Shown piece by piece: positions 17,424 to 28,396 of a stretch of DNA of 49,235 bases. Numbering within the stretch: the stretch's first letter is position 1; every line of letters starts with the position of its first letter. The DNA comes from an endosymbiont of Escarpia spicata (GTDB lineage: Bacteria; Pseudomonadota; Gammaproteobacteria; Chromatiales; Chromatiaceae): assembly GCA_003349915.1 (NCBI GenBank), contig QFXE01000015.1, forward strand, positions 56,355 to 105,589, given 5' to 3'. The position numbers and the translations under genes were made by a program. A model generated the notes under the pieces. It was not told the DNA's origin and made no database searches. It saw nothing but the letters and a program-made list of their open reading frames with translations.

Positions 17424-18029
17424 ATGTTGAGCAAAAGTTACCTGAAGGCCCTGAGTTTTATTCGTGAATTTATCGTCCACGAAGGTTATGCCCCAACTTT
17501 GAGCGAGATTGCACTGGGGATTGGTATCCGCTCCAAAGGCGTGGTGCATCGTTATGTGCAGGCATTGGCCCAAGAGGGTGTCATCGAACTGCATGCCGGG
17601 CGCAAGCGGGGCATTACCTTGCCGGAGCCGAATAAAGAGCGGGATATGACGCTGCCACTGGCCGGACGTATTGCAGCGGGGCGGCCGATCGAGGCGATGG
17701 AGGATCAGGTACGGGTGGATCTGGCCGCCTTTTTTATCGGCCCTGGGCGTTTTGCGCTGCAGGTCTGTGGTGATTCGATGGAGGAGGCCGGTATCCTCGA
17801 TGGCGATATGGTGGTGGTTGCGCAACAGGAGCACGCTGCCGATGGGGACATCGTGGTGGCACTGATTGACAATGAAGAGGCGACGCTGAAATACCTGCGG
17901 CGGAATCCGCATGGTGATATCAGTCTGATTCCCGCCAACAGCGCGATGGCGCCCATGGTTTATGCCGCAGAACGGGTGCGTATCCAGGGTGTGGTGGTGG
18001 GGCAGCTGCGTACCTATGGTAAGCGTTGA
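17424..18029 (+). CDS. lexA: LexA-family SOS repressor
   Basis: This 201-residue repressor has a winged-helix DNA-binding domain at residues 1-65 (GYAPTLSEIALGIGI then SKGVVHRYVQAL as recognition helix) and an S24 self-cleaving domain. The scissile Ala85-Gly86 is in RIAAGRP. The serine is Ser118 in CGDSMEEAGI and the lysine is Lys156 in EEATLKYL, almost the same numbers as E. coli LexA. It is therefore a complete repressor rather than a UmuD fragment. It starts 5 nt after a double operator, so autoregulation is expected. The next gene, a Y-family polymerase, overlaps its stop by 1 nt. It may be the cell's main LexA or a second LexA dedicated to this operon; the sequence cannot decide. Confidence 0.92.
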   Translation: MLSKSYLKALSFIREFIVHEGYAPTLSEIALGIGIRSKGVVHRYVQALAQEGVIELHAGRKRGITLPEPNKERDMTLPLAGRIAAGRPIEAMEDQVRVDLAAFFIGPGRFALQVCGDSMEEAGILDGDMVVVAQQEHAADGDIVVALIDNEEATLKYLRRNPHGDISLIPANSAMAPMVYAAERVRIQGVVVGQLRTYGKR

Positions 18030-19267
18030 TGACAGCCTTGAAGGATAGGCGCTGGCGGCGTGTCATCATTTTGATGGATATGGATGCCTTCTTTGCTTCG
18101 GTGGAGCAACGGGACCACCCAGAGTGGCGGGGACAGGCGATCGGCATCACCAATGGCCAGCGCGGCACCTGCATCATCACCTGCTCCTACGAGGCGCGTG
18201 CCCTGGGGATAAAAACGGGCATGCGGGTCAGGGAGGCGCTACAGATCTGCCCGGATTTTATCCAGGTACCTGCCTCCCCTGAACGGTACGCCGCAGTTTC
18301 CACCCGCATCATGCATGTCCTGCGGACGATCACGCCGGATCTGGAGATCTTCTCCGTGGATGAGGCATTCCTCGATGTCACGCATTGTCAGCGGCTTTAT
18401 GGATCGCCGGAGCGGATAGGGCGTCTGGTAAAAACGCGGGTGGAGACGGCTTCTGGCGTGCGCTGCTCAGTGGGCGTGAGCGGGGATAAGACAACGGCGA
18501 AATGGGCAGCCAAGCAGGGCAAGCCGGATGGATTTGTGCTGATTCCGCCATGGGAGGCTAGATATCGCCTGCGGGAAGTGCCGGTCACGGAACTCTGTGG
18601 TATTGCAGATGGAGTCGGCCGTTATCTGGCGGAGCGAGGTGTCTTTCGTTGCGGTGATATGGCGCGGCTGCCGATCGGTGAACTTGGCCGGCGTTTCGGC
18701 AATCAGGGAAGGCGCATCTGGTATATGTGCCAGGGGGAAGATCCGGAACGGGTGGAGACCCGGGTGGCGCCGCCAAAGTCCATCGGTCACGGCAAGGTGA
18801 TGCCACCGGATACACGGGATCTGGAGACAATCCAGATATTTTTGCTGCATATGAGCGAGAAGGTGGCAGCCCGGTTACGCAGGCACGAACTGCAGGCCAG
18901 CCGCTTCTTTGTGGGACTCCGGGCGGGATGGGGGTGGATTGGCGCCAAGCGGGCTACCCCCCTGCCGACGAGTGACGGGAGGCGGATCATGGCGTTGTGC
19001 CGCGAAACCTTGCGTGAGCAGTGGCAGGGAGAGGGCGTCTCTCAGGTTCAGGTCACGGCGTTGGATCCTCGACCGGTTTGCGAACAGCTGGAGCTTTTTG
19101 GCATGGATGAGCAGGTGGAGTCAGACGCGTTGCATCAGGTGGTGGATCAAACCAACGAACGCTATGGCGAGTTTGCCATTGCACCCGCCCGCCTGCTCAA
19201 ACGATCTGATATGCCGAATGTCATCGCACCCTCCTGGAAACCCTTCGGGCACCGTCAGAGCATTTGA
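18029..19267 (+). CDS. Y-family DNA polymerase (DinB/ImpB/UmuC family)
   Basis: This 412-residue translesion polymerase has palm motifs MDMDAFFASVEQ (first metal Asp and steric-gate Phe) and SVDEAFLDV (catalytic Asp-Glu). Between them is SYEARALGIKTGM, the finger motif. Thumb and little-finger regions follow to about residue 350. A C-terminal tail has QLELFGMDEQ, resembling a beta-clamp binding peptide. I start at ATG 18029, which overlaps the lexA stop as TGATG; an in-frame TTG at 18026 is possible. Coupling to lexA implies damage-induced expression. It is closest to DinB (Pol IV) by motif, but the name is left open. Confidence 0.92.
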   Translation: MTALKDRRWRRVIILMDMDAFFASVEQRDHPEWRGQAIGITNGQRGTCIITCSYEARALGIKTGMRVREALQICPDFIQVPASPERYAAVSTRIMHVLRTITPDLEIFSVDEAFLDVTHCQRLYGSPERIGRLVKTRVETASGVRCSVGVSGDKTTAKWAAKQGKPDGFVLIPPWEARYRLREVPVTELCGIADGVGRYLAERGVFRCGDMARLPIGELGRRFGNQGRRIWYMCQGEDPERVETRVAPPKSIGHGKVMPPDTRDLETIQIFLLHMSEKVAARLRRHELQASRFFVGLRAGWGWIGAKRATPLPTSDGRRIMALCRETLREQWQGEGVSQVQVTALDPRPVCEQLELFGMDEQVESDALHQVVDQTNERYGEFAIAPARLLKRSDMPNVIAPSWKPFGHRQSI

Positions 19268-23052: not shown

Positions 23053-23167
23053 CTGGTTTGTAGCAAAATCCTTGGCCACGTCAACCCGCTTCACGGACTC
23101 ACGGAATGAGTCACCGCCTCAGTGATAATGACAGCATCCTAAGTGTTCCCTGTCGCAGGAGGTTGCC

Positions 23168-24163
23168 ATGTCCACCATTACTGAATGTCTTTCCCAGGTC
23201 AGATTGGGTGAACCACAGGTCCACCATAATCTCGTCCTTTTTCCGTTGATCGCTGAAAAGAGTGCCGAACCCCACTATCTCTTGCTGGATGAAGCCTTGG
23301 CGCGGGGATGCGCCCGTGTGACCGAAGTATCCGAGTCAGGCTCTGTTCCGGAACTCAGGTTTGTCAACGAATGCGATCGTCCGGTGTTACTCCTCGACGG
23401 TGAAGAGCTGGTGGGGACAAAGCAGAATCGCATACTCAACCTCACCGTTATGGCGCCTGCCCACAAGAGCATCATCATTCCTGTCTCCTGCGTGGAGGCG
23501 GGTCGGTGGCAGGCCGAATCCGCCGACTTTGCCAGCGCCAAGCGCGCGCACTATGCTGCAGGAAGAGCGAGCAAGGCGGCCCATGTAAGTGCATCCCTGC
23601 GCAATTCCGGCACCCGGCGTAGCGATCAGTCGGCAGTCTGGCAGGATATATCGGAAAAGTCTGAGCGAATGCAGGCCCACTCCGGGAGTGAAGCCGCTGC
23701 CGCAATGTACCAGCAGCATCGCGCCAGCCTGGATGATTTTCTCCAGGCTTTTCAGCCGGTTGAGGAGCAGGCCGGAGCGATGTTCGCAGTGAATGGCAGG
23801 ATTGTGGGACTGGATCTGTTCGACAGCCCCGCAACCCTTTCAAACCTGCTGGACAAGCTTGTGGAAAGCTACGCGCTGGATGCTATCGACACGATGCAGG
23901 CAGGGTCAGAGGGAGCGGCAACTGATGACCCGCAAGTGATGTTGGATGACACCGCCAGGGCGGCAGTGGAATGCTTTCCTGCCGTGGGTGAAGGTGAGGA
24001 TCTGCGCCTCCACGGCGAACGGCTCACCGGGGGTGCGCTGGTGAAGGATAACCGCGTGATCCATCTCTGCGCATTCAGGTTGCAGGTCAGGGGCAGTGCT
24101 GCTGACCATGGAGGAAGCCGGTTTGCGAGGGCATCGCAACGTCGCAGCCGATGGAGACACTAA
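23168..24163 (+). CDS. ARPP-1 / DUF6569-like domain protein, function unknown
   Basis: A 331-residue soluble protein with no signal peptide or membrane segment. Recognisable family phrases are PVLLLDGEELVGTKQNR, IIIPVSCVEAGRWQ and MFAVNGRIVGLDLFDSP, as in the ARG/rhodanese/phosphatase-associated (ARPP-1) domain. The C-terminus turns basic (RFARASQRRSRWRH), which I believe is also seen in relatives, so it is probably not frameshifted. The ATG follows CAGGAGG. It stands alone between the mobile scar and the HD/methyltransferase/helicase cluster, with a strong inverted repeat after its stop. Biochemical role unknown. Confidence 0.75.
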   Translation: MSTITECLSQVRLGEPQVHHNLVLFPLIAEKSAEPHYLLLDEALARGCARVTEVSESGSVPELRFVNECDRPVLLLDGEELVGTKQNRILNLTVMAPAHKSIIIPVSCVEAGRWQAESADFASAKRAHYAAGRASKAAHVSASLRNSGTRRSDQSAVWQDISEKSERMQAHSGSEAAAAMYQQHRASLDDFLQAFQPVEEQAGAMFAVNGRIVGLDLFDSPATLSNLLDKLVESYALDAIDTMQAGSEGAATDDPQVMLDDTARAAVECFPAVGEGEDLRLHGERLTGGALVKDNRVIHLCAFRLQVRGSAADHGGSRFARASQRRSRWRH

Positions 24164-24172
24164 GGCAGTGAT

Positions 24173-24208
24173 CCGTCGGCCATTATTTTTTGTGATAATG
24201 GCCGACGG
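24173..24208 (+). terminator. Perfect 14-bp inverted repeat after the ARPP-1 gene
   Basis: CCGTCGGCCATTAT (24173-24186) pairs perfectly with ATAATGGCCGACGG (24195-24208) around an 8-nt T-rich loop, 10 nt after the stop. No T-run follows, so it may be an mRNA-stabilising hairpin or a bidirectional terminator. Confidence 0.55.
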
Positions 24209-24321
24209 AAGGCCTGGAAAGTCCATGCAAAACCAGAAATCACGGATAATGAGTCTACCGTAAGCGCTTGCGATAGACTCGGACGGAGGAGAGGCGTTTT
24301 TCCTAGGGAAACACACCACAA

Positions 24322-24780
24322 ATGGGCATAGACACAAAACTCATCCACAGAATTAGAGTCGACTACCAACTTGATTGGCAGGGTATCCACGGTGTATCTC
24401 ACTGGAGCCGGGTCAGACAGAATGGTTTGCGATTGGCTGAAGAAAATGAAGCGGATACCAGCGTCATTGAACTGTTCAGTGTCATCCACGATAGTTGCAG
24501 AGTGAATGACACAAACGACCCTGAACATGGGCCAAGGGCCGCCAGGTATGCTGAGATCTTGCGGACTGAAGGGATAATCCGGCTGACTGATGGCCAGATG
24601 AAGCAGTTAACGGCAGCCTGTGAAGGACACACCCACTCTCATACTCACGCAGATATGACCATTGCAACCTGCTGGGATGCAGACAGACTCGATCTGGGAC
24701 GAGTCGGTATAAGACCCGATCCACAGCGGATGGCGACGCAGGCGGGTGCCCTGCTGGCAAAAACCGCCGAGTATCTGTGA
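24322..24780 (+). CDS. HD-domain phosphohydrolase-like protein
   Basis: A 152-residue soluble protein. The metal-site pattern of the HD superfamily is visible: His27 in HGVSHWSRV, His56-Asp57 in FSVIHDSCR, and Asp119/Asp121 in CWDADRLDLGRVG. A His-rich segment HTHSHTHAD (residues 103-111) may add metal ligands. Such proteins are usually phosphohydrolases on nucleotides, but the substrate here is unknown. The stop is immediately followed by the methyltransferase gene and then the PLD-helicase, so the three probably form one operon. Confidence 0.85.
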   Translation: MGIDTKLIHRIRVDYQLDWQGIHGVSHWSRVRQNGLRLAEENEADTSVIELFSVIHDSCRVNDTNDPEHGPRAARYAEILRTEGIIRLTDGQMKQLTAACEGHTHSHTHADMTIATCWDADRLDLGRVGIRPDPQRMATQAGALLAKTAEYL

Positions 24781-24789
24781 GTGCAGAGC

Positions 24790-25371
24790 ATGGACTACTA
24801 TAATAATAATGCCGAGGCCTTTGTTGAATCGACCCTCCAGGTTGACATGCAACCGCTTTATCAGCGTTTTCTTCCGCTGTTGCCAGTGTATGCTCATATT
24901 TTGGATGCTGGCTGCGGTTCTGGCCGCGATGCTAGGCATTTCATCAAAAATGGTTATCAGGTCACTGCTTTCGACGCCTCCACCGAGATTGCTGCCTTGG
25001 CTGAAAAAGAGATCGGACAATCAGTCCACGTGCAACGTCTGCAAGATATTCATTATCAAAACCAGTTCGATGGCATCTGGGCCTGTGCCTCGCTGCTGCA
25101 TGTTCCCGCCAAAGAGTTACCAGATGTTTTTCATCGACTGGCAGATGCGTTGAAGCCCAATGGTGTGATCTATTGCTCATTCAAATATGGTCGGGGCGAA
25201 TACGAAAAACAGGGTCGTCGATTCACCGATCTGGATGAGGCAGGGCTGCAGTCATTGGTAGGTGAGACCGAAACTCTGACAATAAAGGAAATGTGGGTTA
25301 CGGTTGACCTCAGGCCAGGGCGAGATCATGAGCGATGGCTGAATGGAATTCTGGTAAGTTGTCGTGATTGA
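24790..25371 (+). CDS. Class I SAM-dependent methyltransferase
   Basis: A 193-residue Rossmann methyltransferase. Motif I is ILDAGCGSGRDARHF (about 37-51), followed by the acidic strand VTAFDAS and the post-motif IWACASLLHVP. It resembles TehB/UbiE-like small-molecule methyltransferases. There is no DNA-methylase NPPY or DPPY motif, so DNA is an unlikely substrate. I start at ATG 24790; a GTG at 24781, directly abutting the HD gene stop, is an alternative. It lies between the HD gene and the PLD-helicase; the substrate is unknown. Confidence 0.85.
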   Translation: MDYYNNNAEAFVESTLQVDMQPLYQRFLPLLPVYAHILDAGCGSGRDARHFIKNGYQVTAFDASTEIAALAEKEIGQSVHVQRLQDIHYQNQFDGIWACASLLHVPAKELPDVFHRLADALKPNGVIYCSFKYGRGEYEKQGRRFTDLDEAGLQSLVGETETLTIKEMWVTVDLRPGRDHERWLNGILVSCRD

Positions 25372-25416
25372 GAGTGATATTGATCTGACTATATTCCAGG
25401 CTGGCTTCCAGAATAG

Positions 25417-28302
25417 ATGAAAGAATCAAACCAATCATTAGTCACCGGTGGTCAATCAGACCCGTTCCTCCCCCAGTTGCTCGATGCCATTAACCAGGCT
25501 ACTGAGATCGATATCACCGTGGCTTTTATTCGCCAGAGTGGTCTGGATCTTATCTTTGATGCGTTGAGAGATGCGATGGATCGCCGTGCGGTGATTCGGG
25601 TGTTGACCTCCGACTACCTGGATGTGACCGAGCCACAGGCGCTGCGGCGGCTGATGCTGCTGGCGCAGCGTGGGGCGGATGTTCGGTTGTTCTCTACGGC
25701 TGGCGATCCCAGCTTTCACATCAAGTCTTATATCTTTTTGCGTCGTGACGGTGATGATCTTTTCGACGGTTGTGCCTTCGTCGGTTCCAGCAATGTCTCC
25801 AACATGGCACTGACCCGTGGTCTGGAGTGGAATCTGAGGGTGGATTACCCGGCGGATTCGGCCAAGTTTCTGGAGATCTTCGACAAATTTGAGGCGCTGT
25901 TTTCTGATTCGCGGCTATTTTCATTAACCCACGCTTGGATCGATGACTATGCGGCACGGCGCAAGGTGTCGTTGCGGGTGGTCAGCGGTGAGCCGGAAGA
26001 GGAGCCACTGCCCGCCACTTCAACCGAGATTCAGGCAGAGGCGCTGCTGGCATTACAGTCCACTCGGATTGCTGGTTATCGGCGCGGGTTGGTAGTGTTG
26101 GCCACGGGTCTGGGTAAGACTTGGCTGGCGGCCTTTGATGTGCAACAGATCAAAGCCAGGCGAGTGCTGTTCGTCGCCCATCGGGAAGAGATTCTGATGC
26201 AGGCGGAAGATACATTCGCTCGTATTCAGCCCGAAGCAAGCATTGGTTACTATAAGGGTAATGTCAGGGATAGTGAGGCAGATTTTATCTTCGCATCAGT
26301 CCAGACCCTGGGGCGGGATGAACATCTGCAACAGTTTTTGCCCAACTGTTTCGATTACATCGTGGTGGATGAATTTCATCATGCAAACTCTCCCACCTAT
26401 CGTCGCCTGATCAACTATTTCCAGCCGGGTTTCATGCTCGGTCTCACCGCAACACCAGAGCGTACGGATCAAGCGGACATACTTTCGTTGTGCGACGATA
26501 ACCTGGTATTTGAGAGGAATTTCGTCGAGGGTATCAATGCGGATCTGCTGTGCCCGTTTCACTACCACGGCATTCATGACAGGACCGTGGAATATACCGA
26601 GATCCCTTGGCGTAATGGACGTTTTGATCCCCATGAGCTGAGTAACCAGCTGGCCACCCGTGCCCGAGCCAGACACGCGCTTTCTGTGTGGCGGGAACTG
26701 CGCCAGAGCCGGACGCTGGCGTTCTGTGTCTCTCGTTCTCACGCCGAGTCTATGGCGGACTATTTCAAAAATGAGGGAATTCGCGCAGCGGCTGTACATG
26801 CCGAATCAGAACTGCCACGCCACGCGGCATTGAATCAGCTGGAGAGCGGCAAGCTGGAGGTGATCTTCTCGGTTGATCTCTTCAATGAGGGAACCGATCT
26901 CCCAGTCATTGATACGGTGATGATGCTCAGACCGACGGAGTCAAAAATCCTGTTTCTGCAGCAGTTGGGACGTGGTTTGCGACTGCATCCCGGTAAGGAA
27001 CATCTGCGAGTGCTGGACTTCATCGGTAACCACAAGGCATTTCTGAACAAGCCGGAGTCCCTGTTCGGGGTGACTTCCCTGCGTGAATTCATCAGACGGC
27101 AACTGCAGGATGATCTTCCACTGCCCAAGGGCTGTTTTGCCAACTATGATCTGGGTGTGATCGACTTTTTGAACGAAGTGATCAAAACCCTGCCCAAGGG
27201 GATTATTGAGATCTACGAGCAATTGAAGTCGGTGGAGCAGCGGCGACCAAGTGCGGTTGAGATGTATCGTGCTGGTGTGGATTTTAAACATATCAGGAGC
27301 AATAAGAAGTTTGGTTCCTGGTTTGACATGGTTGCAGATCGTGGAGGGCTGGACGAAGCACAGCAAAAGGTGTTGCAGCGCCATCGTCACTACTTCCTTG
27401 AAGTCAAAAAGGCAGCCATGAACAAGTCGTACAAGATGGTGCTGCTGGAGGCGCTGCTGGAACTTGAAGGCTTCATCCACCCGCAGACCATCCAGGATTT
27501 GGCGATCCGCTCTGGTGAGATTCTGTTGCGTCGGCGGCCATTGATGGTAAAGGATCTGCCCAACCGGTTTCAGAATCTGGCCGAAGTACTTACCACTCGC
27601 CTCGGTCCGTGGATCACTTACTGGAACTCAAATCCGGTACACGCCTTTACAGGCGGTAATAATAACCAGAGCCAACCATTCTTCGAGTTGGATGGAGAGC
27701 GATTAAAACCCAATTTTGAATTGGCGACCGAAGATCGAAATATTTTTCGTGCCATGGTGCAGGAGTTGGTGGACTACAAACTGGCCTGCTACATGGACCG
27801 GACGTCGGGGGATATGAATTCCCGTGCGCTCACTGAATCAAATTCCCCTGCTGAGATCGATACGGGTTGGGACGAGATTCCTTTTTTCCCCAACCTCAAG
27901 ATCGCCTGTGGACATTTCAAGGATGCAGACGGTGAAGATGAAGCCAGGATAAAAATAGCACCTCAACACCGTACAGATCCCGCTCGCCATTTCGTTGCGC
28001 GCGCCACAGGCAATTCCATGGATGGCGGCAGAAATCCAATCCGCGATGGTGACTATCTCCTACTGGAACTGGTCGATACAGAACATGCGGGTTCGATCAG
28101 CAACCAGATCATGGCGGTGGAACGGCAGGATGTGAGCGGTGATGATCAATATGTTCTGCGGGTGGTGCGCAAGCAAGGTGATGGTGGCTATTATCTCCAG
28201 GCCAACAATCCAGACTATGCTGATTTCGGTGCCACAGAGGGGATGCGCCCCTTTGCCCGCTTGTGCAAGGTGGTTGCTTCGGAAGAAGTTGTGAAGGTGT
28301 GA
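25417..28302 (+). CDS. PLD-nuclease / SF2 helicase fusion with C-terminal S24-like domain
   Basis: A 961-residue cytosolic protein. Residues about 1-170 form a phospholipase-D-type nuclease domain with one HxK site (HIKSYIF, His101-Lys103) and GSSNVS at 123-128. Residues about 205-560 form a helicase of the ResIII/SF2 type: Walker A ATGLGKTWLA (229-238), DEFHH (318-322), LTATPER (343-349) and the motif VI-like QQLGRGLRLHPG. The C-terminal ~100 residues resemble the S24/LexA peptidase fold: GNSMDGG with Ser867, DGDYLLLE, and VLRVVRKQ followed by QANNPDY. The position of the catalytic lysine aligns with Arg915, so self-cleavage is doubtful. It is the third gene of a putative HD-methyltransferase-helicase operon. 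DNA repair or anti-phage defence are both plausible; neither is shown. Confidence 0.85.
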   Translation: MKESNQSLVTGGQSDPFLPQLLDAINQATEIDITVAFIRQSGLDLIFDALRDAMDRRAVIRVLTSDYLDVTEPQALRRLMLLAQRGADVRLFSTAGDPSFHIKSYIFLRRDGDDLFDGCAFVGSSNVSNMALTRGLEWNLRVDYPADSAKFLEIFDKFEALFSDSRLFSLTHAWIDDYAARRKVSLRVVSGEPEEEPLPATSTEIQAEALLALQSTRIAGYRRGLVVLATGLGKTWLAAFDVQQIKARRVLFVAHREEILMQAEDTFARIQPEASIGYYKGNVRDSEADFIFASVQTLGRDEHLQQFLPNCFDYIVVDEFHHANSPTYRRLINYFQPGFMLGLTATPERTDQADILSLCDDNLVFERNFVEGINADLLCPFHYHGIHDRTVEYTEIPWRNGRFDPHELSNQLATRARARHALSVWRELRQSRTLAFCVSRSHAESMADYFKNEGIRAAAVHAESELPRHAALNQLESGKLEVIFSVDLFNEGTDLPVIDTVMMLRPTESKILFLQQLGRGLRLHPGKEHLRVLDFIGNHKAFLNKPESLFGVTSLREFIRRQLQDDLPLPKGCFANYDLGVIDFLNEVIKTLPKGIIEIYEQLKSVEQRRPSAVEMYRAGVDFKHIRSNKKFGSWFDMVADRGGLDEAQQKVLQRHRHYFLEVKKAAMNKSYKMVLLEALLELEGFIHPQTIQDLAIRSGEILLRRRPLMVKDLPNRFQNLAEVLTTRLGPWITYWNSNPVHAFTGGNNNQSQPFFELDGERLKPNFELATEDRNIFRAMVQELVDYKLACYMDRTSGDMNSRALTESNSPAEIDTGWDEIPFFPNLKIACGHFKDADGEDEARIKIAPQHRTDPARHFVARATGNSMDGGRNPIRDGDYLLLELVDTEHAGSISNQIMAVERQDVSGDDQYVLRVVRKQGDGGYYLQANNPDYADFGATEGMRPFARLCKVVASEEVVKV

Positions 28303-28396
28303 TCCACAAATGCTCACATTAGACTTTCTTGTCAAAAGATTCATAATTTAAAGTACAGTTCTCTGAGACCCTCCATATTTATCGCATGGCGCAGTT

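Follow-up and report, generated by a model that had tools for sequence, protein, structure and literature searches.

Do three neighboring genes in the genome of a tubeworm endosymbiont form a single functional system, and if only some of them belong together, what might they act upon? The genes in question lie at positions 24322 to 28302 of a stretch of 49,235 nucleotides (hereafter the window; assembly GCA_003349915.1, contig QFXE01000015.1, positions 56,355 to 105,589) from an endosymbiont of Escarpia spicata, and the contig (C8) belongs to a 4.06-Mb genome. They encode an HD-superfamily hydrolase (HD), a class I S-adenosylmethionine (SAM)-dependent methyltransferase (MT), and a large protein (HEL) that joins a PLD-family nuclease to a superfamily 2 (SF2) motor, a coupler, and an S24 domain resembling UmuD. 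A preliminary description of this DNA presented the three genes as a cluster, probably one operon, and inferred a role in defense or damage processing. We found that the conserved unit is MT plus nuclease, not the trio, and that different cutting enzymes adjoin relatives of MT or are fused with them. This pattern suggests a form of self/non-self defense in bacteria that has been little described. That MT and HEL constitute a two-gene, restriction-modification-like defense module, with MT as the dedicated modification partner, is a reading on which our belief and our doubt are about evenly balanced. Overall, the earlier interpretation was partly supported.

The conserved unit is the methyltransferase plus the nuclease

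The three predicted open reading frames (ORFs) were confirmed where the preliminary description had placed them, and all lie on the + strand: HD at 24322–24780 (152 amino acids [aa]), MT at 24781–25371 (196 aa when read from a GTG codon), and HEL at 25417–28302 (961 aa). The gap between HD and MT is 0 nt if MT begins at this GTG and 9 nt if it begins at the ATG at 24790, which would yield a protein of 193 aa and is where the ORFs of two of the three congeners begin. MT and HEL are separated by 45 nt.

Relatives of HEL were represented by the best 80 of 461, picked by likeness to a window-like query. Among these 80 loci, MT is fused to the N terminus of the nuclease in 47, three of which (L034, L066, and L093) appear as two split ORFs. 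In another 30, an unfused MT lies directly upstream of the nuclease, comprising 28 of the window MT type and 2 that look different (L101 and L102). In total, MT is fused or directly upstream at 77 of the 80 loci, 75 of them with the window MT type, which upholds the earlier view of the methyltransferase as a co-inherited partner.

HD adjoins MT and HEL in 2 of the 80 loci, both from tubeworm symbionts. Within the class, HD was found in 5 of 229 genomes, and in the 4 besides the window the examined flanks show neither MT nor HEL. The MT-HEL setting for HD was seen in the window's genus only, where a search of 6 genomes recovered HEL in 5 and HD-MT-HEL in 4, with the window included in both counts. 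The trio was rejected as a conserved system on these grounds. Independent scattering of the genes, which the preliminary description had named as evidence against its own proposal, is what we observed for HD and not what we observed for MT and the nuclease.

In L101 (7378–7998), L102 (7366–7986), and L182 (4365–4967), a methyltransferase that is either plainly distinct or highly diverged (59–68 bits to the MT profile) takes the place of MT. More distant MT loci (L122–L143, about 130 bits or less) have HEL in 0 of 22 within the flanks examined, and the broader MT family was therefore rejected as part of the same system; 10 further places are without a locus.

HEL resembles the restriction enzyme SauUSI

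HEL matches the Pfam families PLDc_2 (7.6e-11), ResIII (4.9e-37), Helicase_C (8.2e-12), and Peptidase_S24 (3.2e-9), in agreement with its first description as a PLD nuclease/helicase with an S24-like tail. The nuclease domain (aa 1–190; 25417–25986, + strand) contains an H101-x-K103 motif, and the SF2 translocase/helicase core (aa 200–560; 26014–27096, + strand) contains a Walker A motif (GxGKT) and a DEFHH motif. In an alignment of 81 rows, H101, K103, and both SF2 motifs are present in all 80 rows with letters at those positions. The best PADLOC model for HEL is mREase_IV (7e-103), and the closest solved structure is 7clg (1.5e-90, residues 8–554). Passages of the structural report identify 7CLG as SauUSI, a type IV restriction enzyme of Staphylococcus aureus, and describe a PLD domain at residues 1–191, an SF2 motor at 221–617, a coupler at 618–805, and an SRA head at 806–953, with a dimer formed via the nuclease (PMC7913695). 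By comparison with the layout given in those passages (PMC7913695), the coupler region of HEL was placed at aa 561–805 (27097–27831, + strand). The HEL motor also resembles RadD and UvrB.

HEL and SauUSI thus share a PLD nuclease, an SF2 motor, and a helical coupler in the same order. HEL differs in that it carries a UmuD-like domain, lacks the SRA head, and has a dedicated adjoining MT that is often fused in relatives; this MT linkage speaks against HEL being a stray SauUSI copy. In the window HEL, we found no SRA (DUF3427) target-recognition head, the part with which SauUSI reads m5C, and the S24-like domain ends the protein instead. The idea that S24 is a simple substitute for the SRA head was rejected as a general rule because 52 of the 80 relatives carry approximately 140 further residues after S24 (at a cutoff of >80), an extension absent from the group that includes the window. 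A profile of 23 such extensions matches the SauUSI SRA head (803–918; 1.4e-10). Passages in two reports show that DUF3427/SRA recognition by SauUSI relatives is already published (PMC3874153, PMC7159879), and a passage in a third notes MutT genes beside SauUSI homologues (PMC7641849).

The UmuD-like domain and its association with MT

The UmuD/LexA-like S24 domain occupies aa 819–961 (27871–28299, + strand). When a profile of 41 tails was searched, UmuD (8gmt) was the sole match at a threshold of 0.01 (0.0022), and a UmuD Cys-Gly pair falls on Cys831-Gly832 of HEL. An AlphaFold model of the domain (mean predicted local distance difference test score of 86.2) gave as its best fold match the C-terminal domain of lambda repressor, including the cleavage-site region (4.4e-6), with further matches to lambda repressor on RecA, to LexA, and more weakly to UmuD.

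Key residues of the domain were counted in the 81-row alignment, which includes the window and in which 2 rows are gapped here, leaving 79 with the domain. All 79 retain Cys831-Gly832 (27907–27912, + strand), which also aligns with Ala-Gly in the LexA-like protein of the window, and all 79 retain Ser867 at the S24 nucleophile position (28015–28017, + strand). Arg915 (28159–28161, + strand) is likewise Arg in 79 of 79 rows; in a MAFFT alignment with the LexA-like protein of the window, it falls where LexA-like peptidases have their catalytic Lys. Cleavage of UmuD occurs at the Cys-Gly aligned with Cys831-Gly832, with Lys serving as the general base. The HEL domain therefore resembles those of UmuD, LexA, and lambda repressor in its fold, its Cys-Gly pair, and its Ser nucleophile position, and differs from them in its invariant Arg and in its attachment to a nuclease-motor. 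With the scissile site and nucleophile kept and the usual catalytic dyad incomplete for want of the Lys, the domain might either serve as a binding module fixed in a form that could be cleaved or cleave itself, slowly or in an unusual way. The LexA-like protein itself carries both Ser and Lys at the corresponding S24 positions, and the next gene, which overlaps it, encodes a Y-family polymerase, making the two an SOS-mutagenesis-type pair (17424–19267).

In a phylum sample, the HEL query recovered 18 SauUSI-like genes in 17 of 349 genomes. An adjacent or fused MT accompanies 5 of 5 genes with S24 (window included) versus 0 of 13 without it (Fisher 1.2e-4, uncorrected for kinship). Among the five, the MT of G296 is a weaker match at 68 bits; among the 13, the far end of locus L192 holds an MT-like fragment of 35 bits, and two (L184 and L194) show no PLD domain within the ORF itself. 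Five more S24-free SauUSI-like loci (L009, L014, L023, L026, and L027) have MT in 0 of 5. When the S24 module was used as the query, 7 of the 349 genomes were recovered, and in the 6 besides the window the main copy resides within a nuclease gene adjoining MT. In one MT-linked nuclease (L148, 6499–9420; G488, C1:3105748–3105948), S24 looks split, and a 78-aa ORF located 38 kb away contains the second half.

The nuclease changes around MT

Strong MT places, defined as those above 170 bits and outside the window in samples of 299 and 369 genomes, numbered 14. At 10 of these, a nuclease of one of four kinds adjoins MT or is fused to it: PLD-SF2 is fused in 2 and adjacent in 3 (in one case as a shortened ORF behind a 142-aa ORF), an HNH protein of 337 to 359 aa is present in 3, HNH-S24 in 1, and another nuclease joined to SF2 and S24 in 1. 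For L150, the match to HNH is weak. For the last kind, Pfam gave no nuclease name, and its N-terminal part resembles the Vsr-like part of L018, a locus found with HEL in which MT stands beside an SF2 protein whose N terminus is Vsr-like (MTES_1575/DUF559). Among 13 loci examined from plasmid or phage records (3 found via HEL and 10 chosen from 43 MT-matching records), 9 have a nuclease adjoining MT or fused to it, as do 4 of 7 strong viral-contig loci. A quick tree of 106 MTs, out of 115 loci tried, requires a minimum of 10 changes of partner class, although many of its branches are weak and those with good support require fewer changes.

A direct comparison is provided by two Pseudoalteromonas megaplasmids (L013, 7236–11355; L156, 4843–7214), in which the upstream DNA aligns and the MT proteins are 82.5% identical, whereas the gene after MT encodes PLD-SF2-S24 in L013 and HNH in L156. 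The alignment returns just past the nuclease gene in pieces of 64 to 167 bases, after which the genes diverge again. L013 and the HNH protein of L145 share 61% identity in their S24 domains, and the HNH part of L145 shares 55% identity with the HNH protein of L156, which has no S24. These identities indicate that the S24 module has also moved between nucleases, or was lost.

Selection and allele divergence

Comparison with three congeners yielded ratios of nonsynonymous to synonymous substitution (dN/dS) of 0.19–0.21 for HD, 0.21–0.63 for MT (with few synonymous changes), and 0.15–0.17 for HEL, and the three genes therefore look maintained. Synonymous divergence (dS) is 0.41–0.50 for HEL and 0.54–1.93 for its S24 part, compared with 0.05–0.13 for HD or MT and 0.16–0.25 for the neighboring ARPP-1 gene described below. 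Between congeners, HEL diverges most in the stretch made up of the coupler and the linker that leads into S24. Against L020, which occupies the same site, identity is 65–78% at 27500–28000 (the coupler end, linker, and S24 start), 82–92% over most other HEL sequence, and 92–98% immediately outside the gene. Imported alleles at 27500–28000 would fit an exchanged segment, much like recognition or specificity domains.

Defense context of the relatives

Some relatives have defense-type neighbors, namely ABC-three-component genes, cas1f/cas3, and, beside hamAB, an MT with an altered end. Together with the mREase_IV match and SauUSI as the closest structure, these neighbors favor a probable role in defense, one of the two roles inferred in the preliminary description. 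The SauUSI-like set is patchy in its distribution among genomes and is carried on plasmids as well. A PADLOC scan at 1e-15 returned 52 families among nearest-neighbor ORFs (99 of 139 scanned, from 65 of the 80 loci) versus 8 among ORFs more than 5 kb away (96 of 106 scanned, from 62 loci), for rows that were hand-picked and non-random, excluding ORFs longer than 900 aa, the majority of short ORFs, and some loci altogether. In these counts one protein can match several families, and housekeeping genes are among them.

Possible roles of MT and HEL

By analogy with SauUSI, the SF2 motor of HEL would use ATP to move along DNA and the PLD nuclease would cut. MT would set a self/non-self state, most likely by marking host DNA and less likely by marking the nuclease or a small signal molecule, and HEL would act on whatever lacks this state. 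We favor DNA as the target because of one common factor, namely that MT pairs with DNA-cutting enzymes of different kinds. Because the SRA head is absent from the window HEL, the coupler and the UmuD-like domain are the sole remaining candidates there for recognition or control. Type IIG/ISP enzymes, with which SauUSI is compared in PMC7913695, are single-chain restriction-modification enzymes, and the 47 fused HEL relatives (including the three that are split) similarly have a methyltransferase and a nuclease-motor in one chain. Unlike those enzymes, MT belongs to another branch and is without the [DNS]PP[YFWHL] motif, and the order is MT-nuclease-motor.

Several observations weigh against this restriction-modification-like reading. 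MT matches Methyltransf_25 (7.9e-16), and its nearest solved relative is RPA2492 (PDB 3e23; 5.9e-34), which is labeled an uncharacterised methyltransferase. None of 55 solved MT relatives is named a DNA methyltransferase; they are of small-molecule, protein, or unassigned types. The amino-methyltransferase motif IV, sought with a pattern somewhat broader than [DNS]PP[YFW], is found in 0 of 106 MT sequences, so that MT was rejected as a classical amino-type DNA methyltransferase, and the proteins are small and mostly acidic, with a median isoelectric point (pI) of 5.4 and values above 7 in 9 of 106. Four of the 14 strong MT places are without a recognized nuclease, 3 of the 80 HEL loci (L029, L059, and L085) are without MT, and the set of 80 is itself biased by the manner of its selection. 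MT also partners nucleases without S24, so that the S24-MT link is not strict; viral contig L209, for example, pairs the window MT type with a PLD-SF2 protein without S24, and this contig and the three MT-less loci led us to reject the link as a strict rule. Finally, given the low dN/dS of HEL within the genus, the allele divergence looks imported rather than positively selected.

An alternative is that MT does not touch DNA. It would then methylate the nuclease, for example near S24, or a small molecule sensed by S24, and HEL would remain off until infection as an MT-gated nuclease. We keep a protein or small-molecule target at half weight because motif IV is missing, the pI is mostly acidic, and the solved relatives are of the types given above, and the pairing of S24 with MT among the SauUSI-like genes of the phylum sample is also in keeping with it. 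However, S24 cannot be the sole target, because MT pairs with nucleases that have no recognized S24 (L018, L144, L146, L150, L156–L158, L160, L161, L163, L205, L207, and L209), and we regard the MT-gated form as a real possibility that is nevertheless unlikely.

HEL might instead be a modification-dependent, type IV-like SauUSI enzyme, of the kind that cleaves only DNA bearing m5C or hm5C and has no cognate methyltransferase, with MT incidental and the window copy a shortened variant. The PADLOC match (7e-103) and the SauUSI match (7clg, 1.5e-90, residues 8–554) point in this direction, as does the C-terminal extension of the 52 relatives, which is SRA-homologous in the profile of 23. But the window HEL is without the SRA head, and MT is present at 77 of the 80 loci, 47 of them as fusions, whereas SauUSI has none, which leaves this explanation improbable in our view. 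A DNA-damage module is another reading: by docking on RecA filaments, the UmuD-like domain would recruit the motor-nuclease to DNA damage, and defense would be secondary. In its favor are the RadD- and UvrB-like motor and the fold and profile matches of S24 to lambda repressor and UmuD, for each of which there is a structure on RecA filaments (8gmu and 8gmt). We see little likelihood in this reading, as the patchy distribution (17 of 349 genomes), the plasmid carriage, and the exchange of nucleases fit defense better than core repair.

If the restriction-modification-like reading is true, a protein annotated just as a class I SAM-dependent methyltransferase would be the modification half of a modular defense family whose members occur on chromosomes, plasmids, and viral contigs. 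Self/non-self would then be set via a fold branch that we do not know for DNA marking. In the literature searched, which covered few subscription journals and was without REBASE, we found no description that pairs this MT family with nucleases of the PLD-SF2 or HNH kind, and none of S24 on a restriction-type enzyme. The occurrence of different nucleases around nearly the same MT amounts to a natural experiment on what MT recognizes. A more speculative proposal, which we mostly doubt, is a class in which a small non-canonical MT is the constant self-marker, the nucleases (PLD-SF2, HNH, and Vsr-like-SF2) are interchangeable, and a UmuD-derived domain couples the nuclease to RecA and SOS. In the long forms, S24 lies just before the SRA head, so a Cys-Gly cut would remove the head and might act as an inherent means of alleviating restriction upon damage to the cell's own DNA. 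The question of how restriction relates to SOS is usually approached via ClpXP-type restriction alleviation, and a direct link between the two can be tested through the UmuD-like domain with its invariant Ser and Arg.

Neighboring genes and minor features

HD and the ARPP-1 domain protein encoded upstream of it (23168–24163, + strand; PF20208, 7.9e-106) appear to be lineage-specific passengers or accessories. HD has no Pfam hit and only weak HD-phosphohydrolase profile similarity, and its metal motif (H...HD...D) is intact, with H23, H27, H56-D57, and D121 invariant in five aligned sequences (the window, one congener, and three others). ARPP is described in passages of one report from predicted counter-viral neighborhoods (PMC9503650).

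The order ARPP-1, HD, MT, HEL is kept in L019–L021, and HEL is 83–88% identical in the endosymbionts of Escarpia laminata, Lamellibrachia barhami, and L. anaximandri. The four genes form a co-moving block (23081–28303; blastn edges 23081 and 28302–28305) that is kept where the flanks differ, on both sides in L019 and on the left in L021. Against L019, the alignable block spans 23081–28302, and the L019 contig stops 214 bases later. Against L021, the block starts at 23081 as well, and the right flank returns after a 4.7-kb insert, whereas both flanks are conserved against L020. In the L. barhami symbiont (L016, 8333–11191; L029), HEL has its first approximately 31 residues replaced, and MT, HD, and ARPP-1 are not beside it; runs of N nearby make an assembly fault possible.

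The ARPP-1 gene separates a mobile-element remnant from HD, and a transposase tail at approximately 22.9–23.05 kb was seen by eye in the DNA and by no search. Between ARPP-1 and HD lies a perfect 15-bp inverted repeat with an 8-nt loop and without a T run (24172–24209). A promoter-like match at 25368–25395 covers the end of MT and the MT-HEL gap, but such matches number 5 versus 4.4 expected, which is no more than chance, and the terminator scan was similarly near chance.

Three further arrangements were observed among the relatives. In six loci (L047, L050, L054, L063, L074, and L091), the nearest downstream gene encodes an HNH protein of approximately 240 to 280 aa (PADLOC PDLC04132), which is on the HEL strand in four and on the opposite strand in two. 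At L178 (4643–8670), one of the four strong MT places without a nuclease, an MT with an altered C-terminal end is followed directly by Hachiman hamA and hamB. On an Acinetobacter lwoffii plasmid (L160, 4986–10558), an MT-HNH pair is located directly upstream of cas1f/cas3.

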